The notes below the pieces were generated by a model. That model worked only from the letters and a program-made list of their open reading frames with translations. It was not told the DNA's origin and ran no database searches. Shown piece after piece: positions 58,582 through 58,751 of a stretch of DNA of 64,000 nucleotides. Location: NCBI GenBank assembly GCA_020736575.1, contig JAGPYM010000004.1, positions 186,001 to 250,000 of the forward strand, in the 5' to 3' direction. Within the stretch, counting starts at the first letter, position 1. The number at the start of each line of letters is the position of its first letter. This stretch comes from Thelonectria olida. Lineage: Eukaryota; Ascomycota; Sordariomycetes; Hypocreales; Nectriaceae. Position numbers and translations under genes: made by a program.

Positions 58582-58588
58582 AAAAAAA
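58582..58588 (-). terminator. Pol III poly-T terminator of the tRNA-Arg gene
   Basis: A run of seven T on the minus strand, 7 bp after the tRNA discriminator base, as expected for RNA polymerase III termination. Confidence 0.8.
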
Positions 58589-58595
58589 TTCGTCA

Positions 58596-58751
58596 CGACC
58601 ACGCCAGGAGTCGAACCTAAGTTCAAAGTTAGTACACAAACGATTGAGAGGATTATCTATGTTGTGCAAGGGGTTGAACCGACCTGGAGTCTTCAGAGAG
58701 ATGGTTCCGGTGTACCGAAATCTGACGCCTTAGCCATTAGGCCACGCGGCC
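58596..58751 (-). tRNA. tRNA-Arg(UCG) with a canonical intron and a second, spliceosomal-like insert in the T-stem
   Basis: The gene is 156 bp. Removing 58699..58714 (16 nt, between positions 37 and 38, the canonical site) and 58617..58683 (67 nt) leaves a complete 73-nt tRNA. The acceptor stem is GGCCGCG with CGTGGTC (two G-U pairs), the D-stem GCCT/AGGC, and the anticodon stem TCAGA/TCTGA with loop TTTCGGC (anticodon TCG). The T-arm is CCAGG-TTCGACT-CCTGG, with discriminator G. The A box (TGGCCTAATGG) is intact, and the B box GGTTCGACTCC survives at the 3' side of the insert. The insert begins GTCGG, ends TACTAACTTTGAACTTAG and lies at AG|GT. No T-run of four or more interrupts the transcript. 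The tRNA call is firm. Whether the insert is removed, and by what machinery, is unknown; the gene could be inactive. Confidence 0.9.
58617..58683 (-). other. 67-bp GT-AG intron-like insert inside the tRNA-Arg T-stem
   Basis: It starts GTCGGT, contains a perfect TACTAAC branch-point sequence, and ends CTTAG 11 nt after that branch motif. Length and signals match the protein-gene introns of this window. The flanks read CCAG|insert|GTTCGA, so AGGT occurs at both junctions, like a proto-splice site or a short target duplication. Near its 5' end it carries GGTTCAACCCC, which resembles a second Pol III B box. Confidence 0.75.

Follow-up and report, generated by a model that had tools for sequence, protein, structure and literature searches.

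A tRNA-Arg(UCG) Gene of Thelonectria olida with a Probable Spliceosomal Intron in Its T-Stem

Introduction

The spliceosome, which serves mRNA, and the Sen/Trl1 pathway, which serves tRNA, are as a rule assigned different substrates. The locus described here raises the question of whether a nuclear tRNA may be processed by both. It lies in a 64,000-nt stretch of the genome of the filamentous fungus Thelonectria olida of the Nectriaceae, Hypocreales (the window; GenBank assembly GCA_020736575.1, contig JAGPYM010000004.1, positions 186,001 to 250,000 of the forward strand) and consists of a tRNA-Arg(UCG) gene that is interrupted at the canonical position 37/38 and again in the T-stem, where the insert resembles an intron of mRNA genes. 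Spliceosomal introns are already known in U6 and U3, and T-arm introns of tRNAs are already known in algae, nucleomorphs and archaea; what the sequence suggests to be new is an mRNA-type intron joined to a tRNA host, one of the small non-coding RNAs made by Pol III. Among the papers listed by the literature searches, in which subscription journals are thinly covered, none reports a nuclear tRNA gene with a spliceosomal intron.

Structure of the Window Gene

The first-pass annotation proposed a doubly interrupted tRNA-Arg(UCG) gene at this locus, and the proposal is confirmed, on the minus strand, by a match to the Rfam tRNA model, by the ARAGORN call obtained after removal of the 67-nt insert in the T-stem, and by identity with another UCG gene, L009. 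In the following feature list, L009, L010 and L011 are the UCG genes interrupted only at 37/38, by an intron of 16 or 17 nt, and L013 is the C79 gene, a further UCG gene on contig C79.

58751-58596, minus: doubly interrupted tRNA-Arg(UCG) gene; the Rfam tRNA model spans exactly these coordinates.
58715-58751, minus: exon 1, nt 1-37, with the anticodon TCG at 58718-58716; placed by RF00005 and by an exact match to L009, L010, L011 and L013.
58699-58714, minus: canonical tRNA intron of 16 nt at 37/38, TACACCGGAACCATCT; identical in L009.
58684-58698, minus: exon 2 (CTCTGAAGACTCCAG), ending in the 5′ strand of the T-stem; placed by sequence comparison.
58617-58683, minus: 67-nt intron of spliceosomal type in the T-stem; recognized by its splice signals, its single genomic copy and a 54-nt intron at the same site in L013.
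58683-58678, 58634-58628 and a site ending at 58617, minus: signals of the T-stem intron, namely the donor GTCGGT, the branch word TACTAAC (branch A at 58629) and the acceptor TTAG.
58670-58680, minus: B-box-like word GGTTCAACCCC within the T-stem intron, matching GGTTCGANTCC at 8 of 10 fixed positions.
58596-58616, minus: exon 3 (GTTCGACTCCTGGCGTGGTCG), comprising the T-loop, the 3′ strand of the T-stem, the 3′ strand of the acceptor and the discriminator G; placed by Rfam and paralog comparison.
58582-58588, minus: run of seven T (T7), the presumed Pol III terminator; read directly.

The window gene scores 35.0 bits against the Rfam tRNA model RF00005 (cut-off 29) in an alignment that opens a long insertion ahead of the T-arm, and the C79 gene scores 35.1 bits, compared with 55.1-55.2 bits for the three uninterrupted genes. 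ARAGORN calls no tRNA in the uncut window gene; when the 67 nt are left out (68+21 nt) and introns are allowed, it returns tRNA-Arg(tcg) with a 16-nt intron. In the anticodon-intron helix of this gene, six pairs are provided by TTTCGG and CCGGAA.

The cloverleaf of 73 nt that had been claimed for the mature tRNA is borne out for the acceptor, anticodon and T stems, which form as expected in the predicted fold; the D-arm is folded in a shifted register, and in the Rfam alignment of L009, which is uninterrupted and identical to the mature sequence of the window gene, all four stems are paired. The poly-T terminator noted earlier can be read directly at 58588-58582, and the A and B boxes noted with it are judged present by consensus, the A box presumably lying at about 58744-58734. 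After removal of both introns, the window gene would thus have the fold, anticodon, A and B boxes and terminator of a functional tRNA gene.

Five Genes for tRNA-Arg(UCG) and the History of the Intron

It had been asked whether the window gene is the only UCG-decoding gene of the genome. It is not, because there are five UCG genes, three of which are uninterrupted in the T-stem: the 73-nt mature sequence matched the 52.5-Mb genome six times, at five loci, and a 30-base pattern with up to 3 mismatches was found at five places genome-wide, while a control pattern was found at none. The first-pass annotation had also held that intact UCG genes elsewhere, together with an absence of spliced reads, would reduce the locus to a disrupted pseudo-tRNA; the part concerning intact copies applies, in that 3 of the 5 genes are uninterrupted. 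L009 equals the window gene over all 89 nt when the 67-nt insert is left out, and the predicted mature tRNA-Arg(UCG) of the window gene is identical to that of all three uninterrupted genes. With three such copies, the cell need not depend on the two interrupted genes.

The fifth gene, L013, carries a 54-nt insert at the very same base of the T-stem (CCAG/GTCAGTTCAGTTCG...CCTAACATGAAATAG/GTTCGA). It differs from the window gene at 1 of the 73 mature positions, in the variable loop, where a T is specific to L013, and at 2 of the 16 positions of the canonical intron. The 37/38 introns of the five genes are of four different sequences and all keep a 6-nt run of anticodon pairing (G-U counted); the downstream T runs, the box words and the anticodon-intron pairing are intact in the window gene as in the C79 gene.

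The two T-stem introns are themselves strongly diverged. Their global alignment scores 34 against a shuffle mean of 24.4, a score reached by 36 of 2000 shuffles, and their local alignment is not significant over shuffles. Compared without gaps from the first base, at lengths that were chosen after the sequences had been inspected, they agree at 15/22 positions (p 0.0025-0.003, shuffles keeping the splice motifs), 8/9 (p 0.017-0.019), 9/15 (p 0.19) and 15/27 (p 0.029). No relation was detected between the 120-nt upstream flanks of the window and C79 genes (98/500 shuffles reach the score). The upstream flanks of L009 and L013 are related (0/500 shuffles; 75% identity by blastn over 195 nt, part of the gene included). 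Because these flanks are shared, though diverged, L009 (contig C89, uninterrupted) and L013 (interrupted) look like duplicates that differ by the precise presence or absence of the intron. The introns of the window and C79 genes most likely go back to a single gain and have since diverged, L009 having lost its copy precisely; independent, parallel gain at one protosplice site is less likely. The pattern as a whole fits either an old intron that has stayed spliceable and was precisely lost from L009, or parallel gain.

These genes are also an annotation trap for ARAGORN. In default mode, the uninterrupted UCG genes and the window gene without its 67-nt insert are all called tRNA-Glu(ttc); with introns allowed, L009 and L010 are called Arg(tcg), L011 is called Lys(ttt), and L013, with its insert in place, is read as tRNA-Glu(ttc) with a 71-nt intron.

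Splice Signals of the T-Stem Introns

Both inserts start with GT, contain CTAAC and end in TAG, 12 nt (window) and 10 nt (C79) after the branch A. The GT start, TACTAAC and AG end claimed earlier for the window insert are read directly from the sequence (CAG/GTCGGT, TACTAAC, TTAG/GT), and those of the C79 insert are GTCAGT...CTAAC...ATAG with CAG on the exon side. In 200,000 shuffles of each insert at the T-stem site, GT...CTRAC...YAG arose at a frequency of 2.35e-4 (window) and 3.1e-4 (C79), for a motif that was picked post hoc; the two frequencies would be linked if both introns had a common ancestor. As AGGT stands at both ends of the inserts, five pairs of cuts give the same product, and the GT...AG ends of a U2-type intron are found in both inserts at one of these five equivalent pairs.

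The donor contexts match CAG/GTAAGT at 7/9 (window) and 8/9 (C79) positions, compared with 6/9 for the U6 intron, 5/9 for each of two U3 introns and 4/9 and 6/9 for the introns of the dynamin gene in the window, two introns that were read by eye and have the donors GTAGGA and GTATGA. Relative to the consensus GTRNGT, GTCGGT and GTCAGT have G at +5 and T at +6 and deviate by C at +3, a point against the spliceosomal reading, and GTCGGT also has G at +4. In a crude collection of intron candidates (38 from 264 kb, where control words average 9.75), donors with G at +5 have a summed weight of 20, of which C at +3 accounts for about 1.7. Upstream of branch words in the same 264 kb, neither donor is enriched (GTCGGT 1 seen vs 2.4 expected; GTCAGT 3 vs 2.1), and the donors enriched in this unsupervised test are GTAAGT, GTATGT and GTACGT; GTCAGT accounts for 4 of 106 entries, themselves unverified, in a crude ab initio intron list. 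Five attempts at an organism-specific splice model from the 264 kb yielded too few clean introns, and the published fungal consensus and the U6 and U3 introns were used instead. The fungal branch word is given as RCTRAY, 6-36 nt before the acceptor, in the account of U3 introns (PMC5832005); ACTAAC of the window gene fits it fully, and CCTAAC of the C79 gene has C in place of R at the first base.

The longest T runs in the T-stem introns are 3 (window) and 2 (C79), and therefore no Pol III stop lies inside them. The predicted fold of the window precursor has a free energy of -44.6 kcal/mol, a stability that might hinder the spliceosome. In this fold GGTTCAA near the donor is paired with TTGAACT before the acceptor, so that the two splice sites would come close to each other; no such donor-acceptor pairing is seen in the fold predicted for the C79 precursor. 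By eye, TTCA and TGAA are seen in the C79 intron at positions like those of GGTTCAA and TTGAACT. Such complementary words could pair the donor and acceptor regions in both introns.

Introns in the U6 and U3 Genes of the Same Genome

The search for U6, in which 47 of 2792 candidates were scored, gave one match among them:

G000:C122:777140-777309, minus: U6, single match (L051); 170 bases against the 105-base model.

This gene contains a 71-nt intron between ACAGAGAAGAT and TAGCATGG, of the form GTCAGT...GCTAACAACCTCACAG, with CTAAC and a CAG acceptor, and it shares its donor hexamer with the T-stem intron of the C79 gene. Since U6 is transcribed by Pol III, the cell must splice a Pol III transcript if L051 is the sole U6 gene. 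Three matches to U3 snoRNA were found (48 of 326 candidates scored; loci L052-L056 on G000:C57, C75 and C88), two of them with introns of 169 and 94 nt at TTCA/GAGAATC and the third uninterrupted; in these 2 of 3 matches, removal of the intron restores the bases of the uninterrupted copy around the junction.

The U6 intron and both tRNA-Arg T-stem introns begin with GTC[AG]GTT and contain a B-box-like word. Such words match at 8/10 fixed positions in both T-stem introns, and equal or better matches occur in 2.7% (window) and 1.8% (C79) of shuffles of the intron middle; the word of the U6 intron, CGTTCGAACCG at +43, matches at 7/10 fixed positions and is equalled by words at +4 and, in numbering from the 3′ exon, at base 312. 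As meaningful elements of the introns, these words are suggestive only. In their leading bases the window and U6 introns agree at 12/15 positions (p 0.002, shuffles keeping the splice motifs), 7/9 (p 0.18) and 12/22 (p 0.10), and the C79 and U6 introns agree at 10/15 (p 0.17). The introns of the Pol III genes may conceivably share an origin, for example if a U6-type intron was reverse-spliced into tRNA-Arg RNA, an idea to which these agreements lend weak support. The intron of S. pombe U6 is itself thought to derive from reverse splicing, according to a discussion of that intron in PMC10484740.

Searches for Further Cases and for Other Origins

The genome pattern CTAAC...AG/GTTCRANNC, aimed at further tRNAs with a spliceosomal intron in the T-stem, was found at 11 places (41 in the reversed control), among which the tRNAs are the window gene and the C79 gene only; the other nine were judged non-tRNA by eye and with ARAGORN, a program that misses the window gene too. 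With a second pattern, 4 places were hit, compared with 7 in its control; they are the same two tRNAs and two others judged by eye, and both patterns are blind to other branch words or positions. The general tRNA search is no census, since 63 of 1484 candidates were scored and 61 listed, the window gene not being among them. Exact patterns had no match in bacterial/archaeal and viral contigs.

A group I or group II intron was considered, and a cmscan of the window with 4227 Rfam families at the gathering score returned the tRNA alone. The T-stem intron was also compared with the 3′ part of the tRNA as a possible duplication: the window intron matches GGTTCGACTCCTGGC at 12/15 positions, which is reached by 11% of shuffles, and the best match of the C79 intron is reached by 28%; such an origin is not supported.

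Proposed Processing and Alternative Explanations

The 67-nt insert is probably a U2-type spliceosomal intron that is removed by the spliceosome in the nucleus before cleavage at 37/38, and the same would hold for the C79 gene. Pol III would transcribe the gene through both introns to the T7 run; the B-box-like words of the introns might help TFIIIC, although the genuine B box is preserved across the acceptor. U1 and the spliceosome would then excise the T-stem intron in the nucleus at the CAG/GT site on the 5′ side of that stem, immediately ahead of the G that is followed by the T-loop, and the T-arm and the D/T elbow would form only after this step. Processing by RNase P and RNase Z, export, and cleavage by the tRNA splicing endonuclease at 37/38 of the refolded body would follow, and the precursor of the C79 gene would be processed in the same way. 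The spliceosome is placed first because the insert splits the T-stem and blocks formation of the D/T elbow, and the elbow and the mature body are sensed by TSEN, as described for the human enzyme structure (PMC10539383). It is rather likely, at a somewhat lower level of confidence than the nature of the intron, that this nuclear tRNA has to be processed by two unrelated splicing machineries in an obligatory order, first the spliceosome and then the tRNA endonuclease.

The first-pass annotation left open whether the spliceosome or another activity processes the transcript or whether a fresh insertion has killed the gene. The spliceosome is now favored, and the fresh killing insertion is spoken against, because a second gene carries a diverged insert at the same site between near-identical exons, because GT, CTAAC and AG are kept, and because the single U6 match of the genome contains an intron. 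A pseudogene in which the T-stem insertion ended tRNA production, with exons still intact since the event is young or through gene conversion, is nevertheless worth weighing, although we consider it unlikely. Its loss would be tolerable with three uninterrupted copies, and short insertions in the D- or T-arm, most of which affect a single member of a large set of synonymous tRNA genes in eukaryotes, are usually read as supposed marks of pseudogenes in the survey of tRNA introns PMC4090602. The interrupted genes could accordingly be dead or unneeded, and conversion could be what keeps their exons similar. However, the same base is hit in 2 of 5 genes by inserts so strongly diverged that they are not young unless gained independently, the exons differ at only 1 of 73 positions, and neither the splice signals nor the terminators, box words and anticodon-intron pairing have decayed; conversion that repairs both sides and yet spares the insert is possible but strained.

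An intron of the tRNA-endonuclease type at a non-canonical position, cleaved by the Sen complex of the fungus and ligated by Trl1, has precedents in the T-arm introns of algae and archaea described in PMC4090602 and PMC9602550, and among the five cut pairs allowed by the AGGT repeat there is one that gives 4/4 central pairs in both genes, mostly G-U and with outer pairs at 1/3. A full bulge-helix-bulge is nevertheless formed by 0/5 cut pairs in either gene under two formulations, the strict form of which is failed by the canonical 37/38 introns used as a control too, which makes this test not decisive; moreover, the insert breaks the D/T elbow that is recognized by human TSEN in the structure reported in PMC10539383, and GT, CTAAC and AG would be left unexplained, so that this explanation is highly improbable. 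We give least credence of all to a mobile introner or transposon that resembles an intron by chance. The flanking AGGT repeat does resemble a target duplication, and the site is a protosplice site; against this, each insert occurs in one copy, the insert itself, in 52.5 Mb at E up to 10, in a search that skipped very common words, so that a very abundant family could hide.

Comparison with Known Systems

Among known systems, the spliceosomal explanation has its closest counterpart in the U6 snRNA intron of S. pombe and other fungi, which is likewise a GT-CTAAC-AG intron in a Pol III transcript; the title of Frendewey 1990, as it appears in the reference list of PMC10484740, also places a B-box-like word in the intron of Schizosaccharomyces U6. 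Unlike tRNA-Arg, U6 is a spliceosomal RNA, and its intron lies near the catalytic site. The introns of fungal U3 snoRNA, as presented in PMC5832005, are similar in that canonical splice signals interrupt a small structured RNA, and interrupted and uninterrupted copies occur in one genome (here 2/3 of the U3 and 2/5 of the tRNA genes are interrupted), but the host RNA is not a tRNA.

The tRNA introns of Cyanidioschyzon merolae, nucleomorphs and crenarchaea resemble the present case in the extra T-arm intron, sometimes accompanied by one at 37/38, whereas those of C. merolae and archaea differ in having bulge-helix-bulge motifs and being cut by the tRNA endonuclease (both according to the sections on these introns in PMC4090602). 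For very short nucleomorph tRNA introns the cutting mechanism is stated there to be unknown, and the main text of PMC4090602 contains no word beginning with "spliceosom". The two T-stem introns of tRNA-Arg(UCG) would share with a further group the spliceosomal type in a transcript that is not made by Pol II. Spliceosomal introns occur in ascomycete nuclear rRNA genes, and the host there differs in being Pol I rRNA.

Implications

The sequence suggests that the mRNA splicing machinery helps to make a tRNA. If this is true, Pol III transcription and a tRNA fold are no bar to the spliceosome, and the maturation of this tRNA would follow a fixed and directly testable order. It would also mean that tRNA annotation overlooks such genes: the search for non-canonical introns is described for the archaeal mode of tRNAscan-SE 2.0 (PMC8450103), and the window gene escapes ARAGORN, which also misassigns the C79 gene. 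The tRNAscan-SE 2.0 paper states that a eukaryotic tRNA gene has at most a single intron (PMC8450103). The interrupted and uninterrupted paralogs within one genome constitute a natural experiment on the gain and loss of introns in non-coding RNA.
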